Shown piece by piece: positions 1 through 39,467 of a stretch of 39,467 bases of DNA (positions are counted from its first letter, which is position 1; every line of letters begins with the position of its first letter). This DNA is from a virus. The notes beneath the pieces are model-generated. The model was not told the DNA's origin. It ran no database searches and saw nothing but the letters and a program-made list of their open reading frames with translations. Position numbers and translations under genes: made by a program. The stretch covers positions 1-39,467 of IMG/VR virus record IMGVR_UViG_3300027911_000032; one strand, given 5' to 3'.

Positions 1-207
1 GGGTAGGGGCTGGGGGCTCTCTTCGTTATGTAAGTAAGCGCTAACTAACTTTGGTAACCTCCCCCTCCCCCCGGACTGGGGGTGCAACGTGCGGGCGGCC
101 CGTCCCCCCAACCGCGCATAGTTACAATCCTTTGCACACATTGCGTATATTCTTGTAGTCGCCAGTAGTTCCGCTATACTGACCCCACCGTCACTAAAGG
201 TAGCCCC
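1..207. other. Non-coding leader before terminase gene (GC-rich, structured)
   Basis: No convincing gene lies here. The first 20 bases continue the G-rich repeat found at the right end of the window. An octamer CTTCGTTA at 21-28 recurs at 39413-39420. A C-tract (61-72) is followed by an inverted repeat TGGGGG (77-82) / CCCCCA (105-110) that encloses a GC-rich core. TTGCACACATTGCG at 132-145 resembles TGCACACAATGCG at 39395-39407. Position directly upstream of terL and the structured, repeated content fit a packaging (cos/pac) region or late leader, but no terminus can be defined from sequence. Confidence 0.5.
153..180 (+). promoter_or_regulatory. Weak candidate sigma70 promoter for the late block
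   Basis: TTGTAG (153-158) and TATACT (175-180) are separated by 16 bp and lie 27 bp before the terL start. The -10 is good (5/6) and the -35 is poor (3/6). An alternative -35, TTGCAC at 132-137, has no equally good partner. It would drive terL and the genes behind it. Confidence 0.35.
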
Positions 208-2199
208 ATGTCTCTATCGAATGAAGCGATACTCAAAGCAATTAGCACTGACCGAGCGCTCGGTTCAGCGATGTTGTTCAACCATCGTCACCGTCAGGCT
301 TCGCCAACCTTCCATATTTCAATCATGGATTTGTGGGCGAGTGCCGATGAGAATGTGTGTATTGAGGCTTTTCGAGAAGGGGCAAAATCCACTCTCTCTG
401 AAGAGTTCCTTTTGATGGAAGCGGGATTTATCAACTTTAAGTACTGCCTGATATTCGGTGAGACCTACACCAAGGCTTGCCAAAGGTTGTCAGCGATCAA
501 GCATGAGATATTGACCAACTCCAAGATCAAGCAGCTCTTTGGGGATCTCAAAGGGGAAGTGTGGGCTGAAAACAAGATATTGCTCAAAAATGAAGTTTTG
601 CTAGAGGCTCACGGTTGGGAAGAGGAGATTCGAGGCTACAAGCACTTTGACATGCGTCCTGACCGCGCTTACCTTGATGACATTGAAAACTTGGAATCGG
701 TGCGTGATACCTTCACGGTTGATAAGAATTGGAAGAAGATTCACCTCCAGCTCATGCCTGCCTTGGACAAAGAGTTTGGGAAAATCCGAATTACAGGTAC
801 ACCGCTGGCTGACGATTGTTTGATCACACGGGCGTTAAATTCGCCAAGCTGGGTCAGTGCAAAGTTCCCCATCTGCGATCGCGATATTGATGACCCTGAG
901 GCTCAGTCACTTTGGCCGGATCGTTATCCGATGGAGTGGATACGGGAAAAGCGGGATCAATACGCCAGGGAGGGGATGCTGCGGGAATTTATGCAGGAAT
1001 ACATGCTCATTGCGGCAGGTTCTCAAGGTAAACCATTTACCGAAGAAATGATTGCGGTTGCTGACATCGCCCCCACTACATACAGTCCAAAGGTTGTGAT
1101 CATGGACCCGGCGCGTACGGTGGAAGTCAAAAAGTCGGACCAAACGGGTACCGTCACGGTGTCTCGTATGGGGACGACAATCTACGTTCATGAGTCGGGC
1201 GGCCACTATTGGCAGCCAGATGAGATCGTGCGGGGCGCGTTTGAAATGAGTGAACGTCACGATAACGCTGAAGTGGTAATTGAGAAGAACTCGCTTGATG
1301 ACTGGCTCTTGCAACCAATCCGCGCCCATGCGCTCACTACGGGAAAACACCTAGATATTCGCCCAATCAACGCTCCACAAGATCGAGATAAAGCGCAGTT
1401 CATCATGGGCTTGCGTCCGTTTTTCATTGCGGGGGACATCATCTTGGTTGGGGGGCGCGCTAAGCACCAGCAGTTGATCAGCCAGATTTTGAACTTCCCG
1501 TCAGGTAAACGAGACATCCTAAACGCCTTAGCCTACTCGCTTCGGGTGTTCTCTGGGGTGCCGGTCTATGGCGATTTTGGCCAAGCAAACATTGTGCAGG
1601 ATGCTGAGCTCAATCGTCGTGACGCTTTGCTTCTTGCTTGCAATGCCACGGGGACTGAAACCACAGCTTGCTTGGTGGCGGTCAATGGGCGAAACATGAC
1701 GGTATTGGCCGACTGGGTGTCACCACTCATGCCAAACGATGCGATCCCCGATGTGGTCGCTTTGATTCGAGCGGTCTATCCTGGACGTAAAGTGACGACT
1801 TGGGTACCAGCCGATGTGTACGATCAGGTTGGGCGAAACCCATTGATCAGTGCTCTCAAGTCATCAGGGTTCACCCCTAATCGGGCTGAAAACGCAATCA
1901 TGAGCAGGTCAGCACTCAGCCCCATGATCCGTACTGAAATGAACGGGCGCAGGATGTTCCAAGTCGATGATCGGGCTGAAAACACACTCAAGGCGTTATC
2001 GGGGGGCTACCACTGGCCAATCAAGTCCGGTGGGGAGCGTGGAGCTGAACCACAGAAAAATTCAGCAAAAACTTTAATTGAGGGTTTAGAAGCATTGACC
2101 TTTGCTATGAATCAGCCTGATAATCGGTTATCAAAGACGAGTGCAAATGCTGTAAACTCCACTGGAACCCCTTACTTGAGCGCTTTACCTAAACGATAA
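208..2199 (+). CDS. terL: Terminase large subunit (TerL)
   Basis: Packaging motor: an ATPase that pumps DNA into the prohead and a nuclease that cuts concatemers. Visible motifs are a deviant Walker A REGAKST (residues 56-62), Walker B RAYLDDIE (153-160), coupling motif ITGTPL (195-200), and RNase H-fold nuclease acids D300 (VVIMDPA), E359 (VVIEKN) and D436 (GKRDILNALAY). An AAAGG ribosome site lies 7 nt before ATG. At 663 aa it is long. Residues about 450-663 form an extra domain whose layout echoes the nuclease domain without its acidic residues. It is followed 2 nt later by the portal gene. The small subunit is not adjacent; the best candidate is at 23594-24124. Identity is secure; the role of the C-terminal extension is unknown. 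Confidence 0.93.
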   Translation: MSLSNEAILKAISTDRALGSAMLFNHRHRQASPTFHISIMDLWASADENVCIEAFREGAKSTLSEEFLLMEAGFINFKYCLIFGETYTKACQRLSAIKHEILTNSKIKQLFGDLKGEVWAENKILLKNEVLLEAHGWEEEIRGYKHFDMRPDRAYLDDIENLESVRDTFTVDKNWKKIHLQLMPALDKEFGKIRITGTPLADDCLITRALNSPSWVSAKFPICDRDIDDPEAQSLWPDRYPMEWIREKRDQYAREGMLREFMQEYMLIAAGSQGKPFTEEMIAVADIAPTTYSPKVVIMDPARTVEVKKSDQTGTVTVSRMGTTIYVHESGGHYWQPDEIVRGAFEMSERHDNAEVVIEKNSLDDWLLQPIRAHALTTGKHLDIRPINAPQDRDKAQFIMGLRPFFIAGDIILVGGRAKHQQLISQILNFPSGKRDILNALAYSLRVFSGVPVYGDFGQANIVQDAELNRRDALLLACNATGTETTACLVAVNGRNMTVLADWVSPLMPNDAIPDVVALIRAVYPGRKVTTWVPADVYDQVGRNPLISALKSSGFTPNRAENAIMSRSALSPMIRTEMNGRRMFQVDDRAENTLKALSGGYHWPIKSGGERGAEPQKNSAKTLIEGLEALTFAMNQPDNRLSKTSANAVNSTGTPYLSALPKR

Positions 2200-22243: not shown

Positions 22244-23593
22244 ATGAGCAAAAGACTACTATTAATTGATCCCGCCTCTAACTGCCTCGATATGGCCCTT
22301 AGAGCCCAAAACGCCGGATGGGACGTTAAATGGTACGATGCTCCCCGTAAAGACGGTATGCCTCGTTTAGCTGGCAAGGGCATGATTGAAAAAATCAGCG
22401 ATTTTAGTGAGATCACACGCAAATGGATGGATTGGGCTGACCTAATCTACCTGCCCGACAATACTCGCTGGCTTGATATGTTGGAGCCGTATCGCCTTAA
22501 AGGTTATCCAATTCTCGCCCCTTCGGCTGAAGCTGCAAAACTAGAGACTGATCGTGATATTGGTCAAAAGGCCATGGCTAAAGCTGGTATTCCGATCATG
22601 TCGTCTAAAGCGTTTCATGACTATAACGACGCTATAGCGTTCGTCAAAAAGAATCCTGAGTTCTTGGTGTCAAAGCCTTCTGGTGACGCCAATAAAGCCT
22701 TGTCTTATGTGGCTTCAGATCCAGCCGATTTGATCTACATGCTTAGTCGTTGGGGTCAACGCGATGATTTACGAGCTGCCGCCAAAAAAGACGGATTCAT
22801 TTTGCAAGAGCGCAAATACGGCATTGAAATGGCTGTGGGCGGCTGGTTCGGTCCTGGAGGCTGGTCTAAATGGTTCTATGAGAATTGGGAATACAAAAAG
22901 CTCATGGACGGTGATTTGGGTGTGGCCACAGGTGAAATGGGTACGCTTAGCCGTATGACCAAGCGCTCCAAATTAGCTGAGCAAGTATTGCTCCCAATCG
23001 GCGACACTTTGGCCAAATTGGGCTATGTTGGCTACATTGACAACAATTGCATCATTGATAAAGACGGCCCTTGGCCAATGGAGTGGACCATGCGTGACGG
23101 CTGGCCAACCAAGCATAATGTCACTGCACACGTCAAAAACGAAGATCCAATTCAATGGCAACTTGATTTAGTGAATGGTAAAGACACCATTGAAGCGATC
23201 GACAATGAAGTTTGCGTAAGTATCTTGATGGCACTGCCAGACTTCCCGTACTCGAAGATCACAAATAAAGACCTTTGCGGTATTCCGATTCGTGGCGCCG
23301 AAGATTATTTAGGTAAGGTTCATTTATCTGAAGTCATGATTGGTACCGCCCCCACTATGGTTGGCGACAAAGTTGTGGATTTACCAGGCTTAGTAACTGC
23401 TGGAGACTATACCCTGATTGTGACCGGCACTGGCGATAACATCACTGCTGCTCGTCGCAATGCGTACAACTCAATCAAAAAGATTAAGATCCCAAATAAC
23501 CCGTTTTATCGCCTTGATATTGGCGCAGGTAGAATGAAAAAACAGTTACCGGAATTGCATAGAATGGGTTACGCAAAGGGTTTGGAGTTCTAA
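22244..23593 (+). CDS. PurD-like ATP-grasp ligase
   Basis: 449 aa. Domain order is that of phosphoribosylamine-glycine ligase: an N-terminal Rossmann-like part (RLLLIDPASNCLDMALRAQ, 4-22), an ATP-grasp with Lys144 (LVSKPSGDA), Glu189 (ILQER), MDGDLGVATGEMGTL (221-235, counterpart of the PurD DGDxGPNTGGMG loop), metal-site Glu280 (PMEWTMRDGWP), and a C-terminal FYRLDIGAGRM. It differs from housekeeping PurD in these loops. The N-terminal PurD glycine-rich loop is replaced by IDPASN. It lies between ejection genes and the small terminase rather than among metabolic genes. Substrate unknown; could be nucleotide synthesis, DNA-base or protein modification. Confidence 0.75.
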   Translation: MSKRLLLIDPASNCLDMALRAQNAGWDVKWYDAPRKDGMPRLAGKGMIEKISDFSEITRKWMDWADLIYLPDNTRWLDMLEPYRLKGYPILAPSAEAAKLETDRDIGQKAMAKAGIPIMSSKAFHDYNDAIAFVKKNPEFLVSKPSGDANKALSYVASDPADLIYMLSRWGQRDDLRAAAKKDGFILQERKYGIEMAVGGWFGPGGWSKWFYENWEYKKLMDGDLGVATGEMGTLSRMTKRSKLAEQVLLPIGDTLAKLGYVGYIDNNCIIDKDGPWPMEWTMRDGWPTKHNVTAHVKNEDPIQWQLDLVNGKDTIEAIDNEVCVSILMALPDFPYSKITNKDLCGIPIRGAEDYLGKVHLSEVMIGTAPTMVGDKVVDLPGLVTAGDYTLIVTGTGDNITAARRNAYNSIKKIKIPNNPFYRLDIGAGRMKKQLPELHRMGYAKGLEF

Positions 23594-24124: not shown

Positions 24125-25034
24125 GGTTTCGCATGCGGAACCACTCGCCACGCCGAGCGTTGGCAATCGCATCAATCACAGGGTAATCAAGCGGCTTGTA
24201 GCCCGTTCTAATAACGTAAATGTGTGGGTTTTTCTTGACGTACTTTTCACGAACTAAGCGGCTCATAAGGCGACTTTGACCTTGCAATCGCTTATGGCCA
24301 GGAAACAAATCCATTCTCAAATAGCGCTCGTTATTTGGCATTGCGGGGCAAGATTCAAGCAACTTGTAGAAATACAATAAATCAGGATCTTCCGGCTCAA
24401 TCATCGGTGTGTAGCAGTGGTAGCGACTGTAAACGTTGTGCAAACCTTTACCATTGAGCACAGTGCGTATTTGACGATCATCCAATCCTATGATGGCCTG
24501 AATCTCTTTGGCCTCAAATACAGCTACTTTATCTCTTGCTCGATACTCAGAGTATTGCAATGCGGCCTCTAATCGCGGTGGAAGTTCTCGCCCCATAAGG
24601 CAATGGATCAATGTATAAAGCGTGTAATAGATATTGCTTGTGGGATTCTTGTATTCCAGCATATCTTCATGCAAGTTCCAAGTTGGCGGGCGATAAATTA
24701 CTACTTCACGCTGGATGTGGCTACTGAGTATTTCAAACTCCATGTAGCTTAATGGGGCTTCCGTGAATAAAGCTGCCTCTGCTTCCACAGGCTTAGGGTC
24801 AACTGGTCCATGACGGTACAAAAGCATGCCGCCTTCATCTTTCCAAAAATCAATGCTCTTTTGAAAAAAAGGGTCCCATTCCCTTGCAATGACCATCGAA
24901 ATGTCTTTGACTTCATTAAGGCGAAGTGGGATCTTACGACGATTCTTTTGAGTGCAATAAACTACAAATGCGTGATTGCGCAAAGACATTTCACGAACTG
25001 CTAGTTCCATCTGATCAGTTTGATAAATATTCAA
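24039..25034 (-). CDS. Hypothetical protein, end of the leftward replication block
   Basis: 331 aa, no motif I recognise. Helical, charged, with two regions that could be winged-helix folds (AKEIQAIIGLDDRQIRTVLNGKGLHNVYSRYHCYTP, about 174-210; and SRLMSRLVREKYVKKNPHIYVIRTG, about 255-280), so a DNA-binding replication or regulatory role is possible. Start ATG overlaps the PP-loop gene stop. Its 3' end overlaps terS by 86 bp on the opposite strand. Confidence 0.6.
   Translation of the reverse strand: MNIYQTDQMELAVREMSLRNHAFVVYCTQKNRRKIPLRLNEVKDISMVIAREWDPFFQKSIDFWKDEGGMLLYRHGPVDPKPVEAEAALFTEAPLSYMEFEILSSHIQREVVIYRPPTWNLHEDMLEYKNPTSNIYYTLYTLIHCLMGRELPPRLEAALQYSEYRARDKVAVFEAKEIQAIIGLDDRQIRTVLNGKGLHNVYSRYHCYTPMIEPEDPDLLYFYKLLESCPAMPNNERYLRMDLFPGHKRLQGQSRLMSRLVREKYVKKNPHIYVIRTGYKPLDYPVIDAIANARRGEWFRMRNLIDQSPEYPLIQCLEGETQSEPFESEPT
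24125..24142. terminator. Inverted repeat at the end of the late block
   Basis: GGTTTCGCATGCGGAACC is an 18-bp inverted repeat with one mismatched pair, starting directly after the TerS stop codon and inside the leftward gene 24039-25034. No T-tract follows on either strand, so intrinsic termination is doubtful; it may act with a factor or protect the mRNA 3' end. Confidence 0.35.
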
Positions 25035-25753
25035 TCTTTTATCTCACAAGTAAATCCACAATCGGCTGGTGAATCATCTTTAAATCTTCCCCTATTTGGC
25101 TTTAACTCATCTAAATACACAGCGCCCTTATCATCTTTATTTATAGAATGACCAATAAATCGCTCTAGTTTTGCCATTTTTTCAAACTGAATTGGGAAAT
25201 CTTTTCTTATTTTGTTCCAATAGCCCATACCACCTTTAACGCACCCGATACAGTTATTATTAGAATACCCAAGGCGATACATAATTGGCAATTCAATGCC
25301 TAATTCAACTAACTTTTTATAACAATCGCGTTTAGTAATTTTTTGGTTTATTAAAATAAAATCTTCATTGACTTCATTGTTAGCGTCAATAAATCTATCG
25401 GCTCTATTTTGTTCATCTATCGTATAGCCAAAGATTTGTATATCAGTTGGTAATTGATATTTTTTTCGTGCATCTTTTTTTAAAGCAGTTGTACATGGTG
25501 CACCATTTTGCCCTTTTAAAAATTTTCGTTGAGTAAAAACTTCATAAATGGACCCTTTATATTTTTCATTTTCAATAATCTTTACCGAAATTCCAGTAGA
25601 ATTTACAAAGTCGTTAAGAAAGCGAATGTTATCTTCGTGTTCTTCAATCACTCTGCAATATACGGCTTCAATTGCTCCATATTTTTCTTTCGCCAGTATT
25701 GTTGCTACAGCACTTGCTGCACCACAGCTAAACCAAGAAATAACTCTGCTCAT
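25031..25753 (-). CDS. PAPS-reductase-like PP-loop ATPase with cysteine pairs
   Basis: 240 aa. PP-loop FSCGAASA (8-15), where the usual SGGKDS-type loop is changed, then NGAPCTTALKK (84-93), GYTIDEQNRADR, and NNCIGCVKGGMGYW (167-180). Cys87, the C168-x2-C171 pair and C232/C236 could hold an Fe-S cluster, as in reductases of this family. Phage homologues are usually labelled phosphoadenosine phosphosulfate reductase, but the real reaction is not established. It is clearly more AT-rich than its neighbours and sits between polymerase and an unknown gene with ATGA overlaps, so it looks like an acquired cargo gene. Confidence 0.75.
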   Translation of the reverse strand: MSRVISWFSCGAASAVATILAKEKYGAIEAVYCRVIEEHEDNIRFLNDFVNSTGISVKIIENEKYKGSIYEVFTQRKFLKGQNGAPCTTALKKDARKKYQLPTDIQIFGYTIDEQNRADRFIDANNEVNEDFILINQKITKRDCYKKLVELGIELPIMYRLGYSNNNCIGCVKGGMGYWNKIRKDFPIQFEKMAKLERFIGHSINKDDKGAVYLDELKPNRGRFKDDSPADCGFTCEIKD

Positions 25754-32862: not shown

Positions 32863-33221
32863 ACGAAGCCGAGATACAAAATCAAGTACGGCTTGAGGCC
32901 TCAGAGTTAGGTTGGCGCTTGTGGCGCAATAACGTGGGCGCGGGCAAGTTGGAGAACGGCTCATTCATTCGCTGGGGTTTGGCCAATGATTCTAAGGCCG
33001 TCAACGAAGAGATTAAATCAGGTGACTTGATCGGCATTAAGCCAGTTGTCATCACGCAGGACATGGTAGGTAGTGTGATCGGTCAATTTATTTCAAGAGA
33101 ATGTAAGCGATCCGATTGGAAGTTTAATCCTAACAATCCACGGGATCTAGCACAGATGAAATGGGTTGAATTAATTTTAATTCTTGGCGGTGACGCGAAG
33201 TTTACAACAGGTAAGTTATGA
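32859..33221 (+). CDS. VRR-NUC domain nuclease
   Basis: 120 aa. Layout of the phage single-domain VRR-NUC family: N-terminal EIQNQVRLEASELGWRLWRNNVGAG, catalytic Asp56 (SGDLIGI), the VGSVIGQFISRECKRSDW segment with Glu81 and Lys83, and Gln99 (AQMKWVELILILGG). Such PD-(D/E)XK nucleases are structure-specific and can resolve branched DNA made in replication. Overlaps neighbours by ATGA. Confidence 0.82.
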   Translation: MNEAEIQNQVRLEASELGWRLWRNNVGAGKLENGSFIRWGLANDSKAVNEEIKSGDLIGIKPVVITQDMVGSVIGQFISRECKRSDWKFNPNNPRDLAQMKWVELILILGGDAKFTTGKL

Positions 33222-33535
33222 AAGTTAGACGCGGAGAAGAGGTACGAAAGTCCGAGATATTAGCGGCAGCATTAGAGCTGGCGCATGACATCGGTTATCA
33301 GAAGATCACACGGGATGCACTTGCCATCAAGGCTTGTTGTTCAACGGGATTGATTACGACTTATTTTGGCACGATGAATCATTTACGTCGCGCCATTATT
33401 AGTCATGCAATCGCTAAGCACGATCTTCAAGTGATCGCTCAAGGGCTCACTGCCAATGAAGCCAAAGCACATCACGCAAGCGAAGAGCTCAAACGTGCCG
33501 CCATGGAACACACGCTATTGATGGGACAAGAATAA
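33218..33535 (+). CDS. Minimal TetR-like HTH protein
   Basis: 105 aa. The first 55 residues (RKSEILAAALELAHDIGYQKITRDALAIKACCSTGLITTYFGTMNHLRRAII) follow the TetR N-terminal HTH pattern. The usual C-terminal ligand/dimer domain (about 130 more residues) is absent; a short helical tail remains. It may dimerise through this tail. It lies between nuclease and primase, 2.3 kb downstream of the divergent promoters, and is a good candidate for the TGAC-N6-GTCA operator (inference). Confidence 0.7.
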   Translation: MKVRRGEEVRKSEILAAALELAHDIGYQKITRDALAIKACCSTGLITTYFGTMNHLRRAIISHAIAKHDLQVIAQGLTANEAKAHHASEELKRAAMEHTLLMGQE

Positions 33536-38043: not shown

Positions 38044-38130
38044 TTAAACCCCTAGCAATGCGGTTGCAAACATGGCGCCCAATACTGAGGCCATGACGAT
38101 AAATAAGATTATTTTTAATAGTTTGCGCAT
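38044..38130 (-). CDS. 28-residue hydrophobic peptide
   Basis: MRKLLKIILFIVMASVLGAMFATALLGV: basic start then one membrane segment or an uncleaved signal. AGGGGG lies 8 nt before the ATG, and it sits exactly between the stop of the upstream gene and the start of the downstream one. Likely translated. Function unknown. Confidence 0.5.
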   Translation of the reverse strand: MRKLLKIILFIVMASVLGAMFATALLGV

Positions 38131-38513: not shown

Positions 38514-38861
38514 TTACCCTAATTGGTTAGATGCAATAATTGCCGTGAATTGATCTCTAATGGCTTCAAGTTGCACCAATATTTCAGGCTTAGAGCTAAT
38601 ACGCTCAAACTCTATAAAGCTATCATCCAGCAAACGATTAGACGAAAGTGCACCGATTTCTTTAGCTATCTTAATTACTTCACTTTGCTGATAGTTTTGC
38701 CCAGATTGATAGCGTATCGAATAGTCTTTTCTGCACTCAACGCATTCACAATTACGCACGTATCTCTTAGCGGTATGACCATTCTTACAGGCCTTACCAG
38801 TGAAGTAGTAAAGTGAGTTGGACATGATGGCCTCACGTCGGTTAGTTGGTAAATTTTGCAT
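38514..38861 (-). CDS. Small zinc-finger protein
   Basis: 115 aa. The text YYFTGKACKNGHTAKRYVRNCECVECRKDY (about 18-47) is the zinc-binding N-terminal module (C-x3-H ... C-x2-C) that precedes HNH/endonuclease VII domains in many phage enzymes, but no HNH motif follows; the rest is helical. So it is either a truncated nuclease or a free zinc finger. Start ATG 38861 has GGGAG 6 nt upstream; ATG 38825 is an alternative. First gene of the leftward early block. Confidence 0.65.
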   Translation of the reverse strand: MQNLPTNRREAIMSNSLYYFTGKACKNGHTAKRYVRNCECVECRKDYSIRYQSGQNYQQSEVIKIAKEIGALSSNRLLDDSFIEFERISSKPEILVQLEAIRDQFTAIIASNQLG

Positions 38862-38896
38862 TTAATACTCCCTGTTATTAGTTTGCATGAGTAGTG

Positions 38897-38926
38897 AGTT
38901 TAATATAGTATAGGTTTAACTGTCAA
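38897..38926 (-). promoter_or_regulatory. Main leftward early promoter
   Basis: Minus strand TTGACA (38926-38921), 18-bp spacer, TAAACT (38902-38897), about 36 bp before the zinc-finger gene. The -35 is perfect and the -10 is the same as at 8609. An inverted repeat TTTAACT (38915-38921) / AGTTAAA (38932-38938) flanks the -35 region and could be an operator. Confidence 0.55.
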
Positions 38927-38946
38927 TTGGTAGTTAAAGGTGACGC

Positions 38947-39186
38947 TAAAAGGTAGAAAATATCTTTATAAATCAATTACTTAAATGTTTCTACCTCGAA
39001 CTTTTTACCACCTCGATGACACTTCATACCCTTTTTATATTATAATATCATAATAACATATAGTATATATACTCTTTTACGTACACTATTACTCTATTCT
39101 ATTTTATAAAAGGTAGAAAGGTAATAGGGAATAAGGGTATATAAATCAACGGGTTAGGCCACCTCATCGAACTTACCTCGAACTTT
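38947..39186. repeat. Duplicated repeat module flanking an AT-rich core (possible origin)
   Basis: Three words occur twice in the same order: TAAAAGGTAGAAA (38947-38959, 39107-39119), TATAAATCAA (38967-38976, 39140-39149) and TACCTCGAACTTT (38992-39004, 39174-39186). TTTCTACCT (38988-38996) is an inverted copy of the first. Between the modules, 39031-39110 is almost pure A/T with palindromes ATATTATAATAT (39037-39048) and GTATATATAC (39063-39072). Repeats plus an easily melted core are typical of replication origins, but a regulatory role is also possible. Confidence 0.5.
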
Positions 39187-39230
39187 AAGCATGTGGTTGC
39201 TAAAGGTAAGCTATCAGTGCATGAGGTTAG

Positions 39231-39257
39231 TTGGCACTCATCGACTTAGAGTGCTAA
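39231..39257. promoter_or_regulatory. CIRCE element (HrcA operator)
   Basis: Arms TTGGCACTC (39231-39239) and GAGTGCTAA (39249-39257) with exactly 9 nt between. The CIRCE consensus is TTAGCACTC-N9-GAGTGCTAA; the only difference is G for A at position 3 of the left arm. CIRCE is bound by HrcA, the heat-shock repressor of groESL/dnaK operons in many bacteria. No hrcA or heat-shock gene is in this window. On the plus strand a weak promoter (TTGGCA 39231-39236, 18 bp, TAATAA 39255-39260) is embedded. Confidence 0.8.
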
Positions 39258-39354
39258 TAAATGGGACATAGTGACGCACTCAGTTACATAACGAAACGAG
39301 CCGCCCGCGCCCGCTGGTGCTTGTGGCTTTAAAGGTTCGCTCGGTGGCTCCCAG

Positions 39355-39370
39355 TGTTTCACGTGAAACA
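39355..39370. promoter_or_regulatory. Perfect chromosomal-type parS site
   Basis: TGTTTCACGTGAAACA is a perfect 16-bp palindrome identical to the conserved bacterial parS consensus bound by chromosomal ParB (Spo0J). No parA or parB gene is present in this window, so it would be read by host ParB. It is 97 bp from the CIRCE element. Confidence 0.85.
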
Positions 39371-39423
39371 ATTGACGCCTGGGGACTCCCCCAATGCACA
39401 CAATGCGAGGGGCTTCGTTAGTG

Positions 39424-39467
39424 CTGGGGGCTACCTAGGGGGCTGGGGGTTACCTAGGGTACTGGGG
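39424..39467 (+). repeat. G-rich 19-bp tandem repeat with G-quadruplex potential
   Basis: CTGGGGG-yTACCTAGGG units begin at 39424, 39443 and 39462. The third is cut by the window end and would continue into bases 1-9, with a fourth CTGGGGGCT at 10-18 if the ends join. The G-runs are separated by loops of 7, 2, 7 and 4 nt, which meets the usual G-quadruplex rule. CCTAGG palindromes lie in the loops. Confidence 0.7.

Follow-up and report, generated by a model that had tools for sequence, protein, structure and literature searches.

A CIRCE element beside a parS site in a gene-free region of a lake phage genome: a possible array of decoys for host regulators

An operator of the bacterial repressor HrcA that lies on a phage genome, away from any chaperone gene, raises the question of what it does there. 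The DNA analyzed (here called the window) is a stretch of 39,467 bp, IMG/VR record IMGVR_UViG_3300027911_000032, which was confirmed as a virus record and derives from an uncultured lake virus of bacteria. From sequence comparison, we lean toward the reading that its CIRCE belongs to an array of binding sites that would titrate several host regulators as the phage DNA multiplies.

The CIRCE element and its surroundings in the window

The features used in the analysis are listed below.

38514-38861, minus strand: first leftward gene adjoining the array, an ORF of no assigned function
38862-39467, no strand: non-coding divergent intergenic region with CIRCE and parS, running on into 1-207 up to terL if the contig ends join
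38897-38926, minus strand: promoter-like TTGACA-N18-TAAACT belonging to the leftward gene set, the distance to CIRCE being about 305 bp
39231-39257, no strand: predicted CIRCE (HrcA operator) by consensus match, TTGGCACTC-ATCGACTTA-GAGTGCTAA, with an N9 spacer
39258-39269, minus strand: CIRCE flank, the minus strand reading ATGTCCCATTTA-TTAGCACTC and running into CIRCE
39355-39370, no strand: predicted chromosomal parS (ParB site), exact TGTTTCACGTGAAACA, 97 bp from CIRCE
30-49, no strand: third palindrome, GTAAGTAAGCGCTAACTAAC, of TetR type (TTAGTnAGnnCTnACTAA), a candidate operator
153-180, plus strand: TTGTAG-N16-TATACT, probably the promoter of terL, about 360 bp beyond CIRCE in the joined map, recognized by eye and scoring below the promoter-scan threshold
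208-2199, plus strand: terL, terminase large subunit gene (PHROG 38, E 1.8e-50)
33218-33535, plus strand: 105-aa protein with a TetR_N DNA-binding domain only (TetR_N E 1.4e-5)

The element at 39231-39257 has the form of the 9-bp inverted repeat TTAGCACTC/GAGTGCTAA with a 9-nt spacer, and differs by one mismatch from the consensus TTAGCACTC-N9-GAGTGCTAA. It was the only match at ≤3 mismatches in the window, and none of 100 dinucleotide shuffles of the window contained one; the composition-based expectation of a CIRCE with ≤1 mismatch was 3.5e-5. Gene and profile searches of the window ORFs revealed neither a chaperone gene nor an HrcA gene. The original prediction, which had placed a one-mismatch CIRCE at these coordinates, put its chance occurrence at about 3e-5 and reported no heat-shock gene nearby, was confirmed in these three respects. 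An RNA element at the same position was considered and discarded, as Rfam gave no match and the folded hairpin, which has no U run, follows from the palindrome.

Two further sites had been missed by that prediction. The 16-bp parS palindrome TGTTTCACGTGAAACA is matched at 16 of 16 bases at 39355-39370, with an expectation of 1.2e-5 in the window by itself and of about 3e-12 jointly with a CIRCE within 150 bp. The TetR-type palindrome at 30-49 falls downstream of parS and before terL when the contig ends are joined; overlapping ends were seen in the two nearest relatives, G001 and G002, from which we infer the same join for the window. An AT-rich stretch lies at about 39030-39080, between the leftward gene and CIRCE.

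One explanation is that CIRCE serves as operator of an HrcA-controlled phage promoter, switched on when the host chaperones are overloaded, and the original prediction had proposed in this sense a stress-sensing switch of a transcript toward terL. Such promoters apparently exist in other phages (see below), and the flank at 39258-39269 is similar to CCCnATTA-TTAGCACTC, the junction at which -10 and CIRCE meet in bacterial groESL promoters. A similar junction, CCCnATTATTAGCACTC, was found in 55 of 274 gammaproteobacterial genomes, where the examples inspected resemble groESL promoters, and TGTCCC(C/A)ATTATTAGCA, akin to the window flank, was found in G002 and in the unrelated phages L050/L127. 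However, no -35 pairs with the flank in the window, nor in these phages. The promoter scan of the region showed no -35/-10 pair overlapping CIRCE, the nearest promoter-like sites being >175 bp away, with weak ones at 39016-39051. The distance from CIRCE to the leftward gene is about 370 bp and that to terL about 417 bp; no gene start lies within about 150 bp of 39231-39257, and the promoter-like sites of the two genes, of which the terL -10 stretch CCGCTATACTGACC is kept in G001 and G002, are about 305 and 360 bp off. Nor does the element belong to a chaperone operon promoter, as no chaperone gene is near. Owing to the missing -35 and to these distances, an HrcA-controlled promoter at the window CIRCE is quite unlikely, and the proposed switch toward terL found no support, since no promoter overlaps the element.

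Among the genes of the window are those for terL, a T7-type portal, primase, helicase, exonuclease, DNA polymerase and a gp2.5-like ssDNA-binding protein, a set that points to a podovirus-like genome of lytic type. No integrase, ParA, ParB or HrcA was detected among the scanned ORFs; a plasmid prophage dependent on host ParB also finds no counterpart there, as integrase and plasmid partition or replication genes are lacking among them. These absences suggest that the host would supply the ligands of the sites, with the TetR-type site as a possible exception. The TetR_N protein at 33218-33535 has no ligand domain, is conserved in six genomes of the family and is a possible phage-encoded ligand of the third palindrome. 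It lends some support to the idea that the palindromes are operators of phage regulators mimicking host specificity, but the searches of the window revealed no protein resembling HrcA or ParB, and TetR-type palindromes are shared by L059, L127 and G293 without a detectable TetR_N protein (two of these records are fragments). That idea is accordingly given little probability. The window also carries GARS-like (purine synthesis, ATP-grasp) and PAPS-reductase-like genes at 22244-23593 and 25031-25753.

Conservation and turnover before terL

Blastn of the window region against the phage collection gave no match, and tblastn of terL against cultured phages reached about 20-25% identity at most, indicating no close cultured relative. 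Conservation in related phages, a check suggested by the original prediction, was found in the nearest of them and lost with distance. G001 and G002, with a terL identity of 97%, each keep a CIRCE with one mismatch and a parS with one or two mismatches (TGTTTCACGTGGAACA and TGTTTCACGTGGAACG), and the palindrome at 30-49 is identical in both. The order CIRCE, parS, TetR-type palindrome, terL is common to the three genomes, across the contig join in G001 and G002. In any pair among them, 2 of the 18 arm positions of CIRCE differ, whereas the spacer of G002 differs from those of the window and G001 at 5-7 of 9 positions, which fits selection on the arms. The spacers of the window and G001 (38058-38084) are dissimilar unless one of the two elements is inverted, with 2 of 9 positions then differing, and CIRCE thus seems to have been flipped between the two; such an inversion would hardly be tolerable for an operator tied to one promoter.

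More distant relatives (terL identity 68-76%) showed no CIRCE at ≤3 mismatches. In a sister subclade (L012, L015, L016, L018, L022), four exact DnaA boxes are located 300-500 bp before terL, and none was found elsewhere in up to 17 kb of those genomes. L006 has a TetR-type palindrome in the pre-terL slot. Comparison of these sequences indicates that the slot is kept in the family while its content changes. Other repeats seen in it are ATATCGACCAGTAGCG (L005, about 300-410 bp before terL) and CAGTAATTTATAGTAATTTAC direct repeats (upstream regions of L027 and L028).

CIRCE elements on other viral contigs

The exact CIRCE was present in 104 stretches of the viral collection, compared to 1 for a control palindrome made by scrambling its letters. 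Chance, assembly error or host DNA could be invoked for the window, as its contig is uncultured; the low expectation, the recurrence in two further assemblies and the 104-to-1 control make this very improbable.

A total of 81 loci were read, comprising 80 of the 104 stretches (one contig giving two) and L047. A chaperone gene was located within 600 bp of the exact CIRCE at 28 of these loci (18 Hsp20, 8 GroES and 2 HSP90), although some records of the collection may be fragments of bacteria, the groESL-linked loci in particular. The hsp20 genes lie mostly 22-31 bp downstream of CIRCE (some 60-105 bp), in many cases with a -10 immediately upstream, and phage genes for small heat-shock proteins behind CIRCE are apparently HrcA-controlled.

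hsp20 with exact CIRCE: L049:1219-1690, L058, L070, L071, L075, L076, L077, L080, L091, L099, L103, L105, L114, L122, L123, L125
HSP90 (HtpG) genes 65-75 bp behind exact CIRCE, viral contigs: L066:255-2008, L081:709-2714

The other 53 of the 81 loci, without a chaperone gene within 600 bp, are referred to as orphan CIRCEs. Around them, the window included, 68 further palindromes were found in 26 kb against 11.3 in shuffles (6 times), whereas chaperone-linked CIRCEs had 6 in 10.6 kb against 3.3 (1.8 times). A second CIRCE within 500 bp was observed at 10 of 46 orphan loci and at 0 of 18 chaperone-linked loci. Within 400 bp of CIRCE, the observed and expected (shuffled) numbers of operator-like sites were, respectively, 5 and 0.00 for parS, 8 and 0.10 for Rex, 7 and 0.00 for NtrC, and 10 and 0.05 for TetR-type, counted with working consensus sequences and with the near-duplicates L050 and L069 included, so that not all are independent. 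The names Rex-, NtrC-, Fur- and TetR-type denote resemblance to a consensus.

Many orphan CIRCEs sit in arrays that combine two to four CIRCEs, parS and Rex-, NtrC-, Fur- or TetR-type sites. L047 has three CIRCEs and two exact parS within 175 bp, L124 two CIRCEs and a parS within 100 bp, L062 two CIRCEs and a parS, L073 four CIRCEs at 49-bp spacing, and L078 two CIRCEs with many TTGTGAAAAAATTCACAA (Rex-type) and GTTAGTCTAAACTAAC boxes. NtrC-type boxes (TGCACCAAAATGGTGCA), TetR-type boxes and CIRCE occur together upstream of the terminase region in L059 (480-720), L127 (11400-11680) and L050 (1780-2070), the TetR-type boxes in these unrelated phages being of the motif class of the window's third palindrome; in L059 there are two NtrC-type, four TetR-type and one Fur-like box. 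Carriers of orphan arrays bear portal, tape-measure, tail, endolysin or terminase genes of differing kinds, and the arrays are therefore not confined to one phage family. Linkage of CIRCE and parS was found in four unrelated lineages (the window family, L047/L048, L062 and L124), and scans at other CIRCE-parS spacings returned these known loci only. In 13 of 13 records checked, CIRCEs were confined to a single locus. By itself, parS was present in >120 stretches, and none of the 80 matches listed had a CIRCE within 500 bp, which indicates that solitary parS is common and often unrelated to arrays.

Some further observations were made on these contigs. Three to five exact parS copies occur in L163, L170, L197, L206 and L216. 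Long arrays of Rex-type TTGTGAAAAAATTCACAA and GTTAGTCTAAACTAAC extend over several intergenic gaps in L078:3800-5250 (a 176-kb contig) and L093:9460-10260; several TTGTTAAAnATTTAACAA (Rex-type) and AACATATGTT boxes adjoin CIRCE at L056:2540-2750; and in L084:7037-7190 two CIRCEs are followed by three ATGAAACGTTTCAT (LacI-type) palindromes. The names DtxR for the GTTAGTCTAAACTAAC boxes and LacI for ATGAAACGTTTCAT were considered as labels by resemblance and dropped.

The position of the arrays bears on a local role, in which ParB (perhaps with SMC or ParA), DnaA and repressors would form a nucleoprotein patch on the phage DNA that could mark an origin or packaging end, position the genome, block transcription between the divergent gene sets or shield the DNA from nucleases. 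The array adjoins packaging genes in the window family and lies upstream of the terminase in the unrelated L050/L127 type, and the AT-rich stretch together with the DnaA boxes of the sister phages looks origin-like. In addition, ParB accumulates in foci on phage DNA with a parS after its injection (PMC13190303). On the other hand, HrcA, Rex-, NtrC- and Fur-type sites, which belong to metabolism and stress, would be odd in an origin or partition site, the GC skew shows no clear switch at the window array, and the arrays of other phages are not at a fixed genome position. A local role is thus judged unlikely, although it deserves some weight.

Proposed titration of host regulators

In the titration reading, host HrcA and ParB would bind their candidate sites on the phage DNA, and replication of that DNA would multiply the sites, so that free repressor would fall. 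With HrcA titrated, groESL (and dnaK, where HrcA-controlled) would be de-repressed and capsid folding helped, while ParB, DnaA and other regulators would be drawn off their chromosomal sites. This reading is favored by the joint rarity of CIRCE and parS and their recurrence in G001 and G002, by the roughly 100-fold excess of exact CIRCE over the scrambled control, and by the abundance of palindromes and second CIRCEs at orphan loci and not at chaperone-linked ones. The repetition of sites far beyond the need of a promoter (the four CIRCEs of L073, the several Rex-type boxes of L078), the unrelated tailed phages that carry them and the four DnaA boxes before terL in the sister clade point in the same direction. 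The similar clusters of unrelated phages suggest that phage DNA may act as a bait soaking up host regulators.

The original prediction had offered titration of HrcA, for the benefit of groESL and capsid folding, as its other reading; the titration part fits the comparative data best, but the proposal was too narrow, given that parS and other regulator-type sites accompany CIRCE. As CIRCE sits with an exact parS, and unrelated phages add further regulator-type sites, the function of the array probably extends beyond groESL and capsid folding. More generally, many unrelated tailed phages may carry a DNA-encoded, multi-target sponge of high-affinity sites (HrcA, ParB, DnaA, Rex-, NtrC-, Fur- and TetR-type) in a gene-free slot, matched to the host and quickly exchanged, which would reprogram the host by titration without a protein or RNA effector; this wider proposal is put forward tentatively, with a serious but not quite even chance of holding.

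Against titration, one CIRCE per genome would require many genome copies to titrate HrcA. Many ParB clamps are loaded from one parS. Since a few sites suffice for ParB, which slides, a single parS would be a poor sponge and may have another purpose: the outcome could be a disturbance of chromosome segregation or a positioning of the phage genome, with a gain that is less clear than for HrcA. In favor of titration, operator decoys in Escherichia coli have an effect proportional to their copy number (PMC7826281), and the accumulation of ParB on parS-bearing phage DNA (PMC13190303) also fits. The window array shares with those synthetic transcription-factor decoys the promoterless operator copies, clustered here with other sites; it differs in being natural, located on a phage, directed at several regulators and known from sequence.

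The window elements likewise depart from their other known counterparts. CIRCE has the arms and 9-nt spacing of the HrcA operator of bacterial groESL/dnaK operons, and a flank like groESL -10 junctions, but it is on a phage, beside parS, and lacks a chaperone gene and a -35. The parS shares all 16 bases with the chromosomal ParB/Spo0J site, but it occurs on a phage without detected ParA or ParB and is linked to CIRCE. The CIRCEs of phage hsp20 and groES genes, also on viral contigs and exact where that of the window has one mismatch, are at a promoter just before the gene and without extra palindromes, neither of which applies to the window. Phage promoters run by host regulators include those under LexA in CTXphi or GIL01 and under Fur at stx1; these sites control an adjacent phage promoter, and none such is present at the window CIRCE. 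No report of a CIRCE on a phage genome or of natural phage operator decoys was found in the literature searched, which left out most subscription journals.

Takeover of the host by phages has been studied mostly through proteins and small RNAs. If the arrays are sponges, non-coding phage DNA would itself be an effector, and its sequence would reveal which regulators a phage must neutralize. Features of unidentified hosts could then be inferred from the operator content of their phages.

Other clues to the host of the window virus were also sought. The TetR-type palindrome was rejected for this purpose, as it occurred with one mismatch in 2 of 274 Gammaproteobacteria and the one context read was inside a gene. 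The sole bacterial bin with a relative of the window was a Methylococcaceae MAG, the relative being distant (34% identity in terL, 61% in the major capsid protein); host assignment from this single distant match was considered weak and not adopted. HrcA is encoded in the MAG (E 2.9e-64); a CIRCE-like TTGGCACTC...GAGTGCCAA lies about 350 bp upstream, and a CIRCE precedes groES. Since the bin of this distant relative thus has both the repressor and its operator, absence of HrcA from the host range is unlikely.
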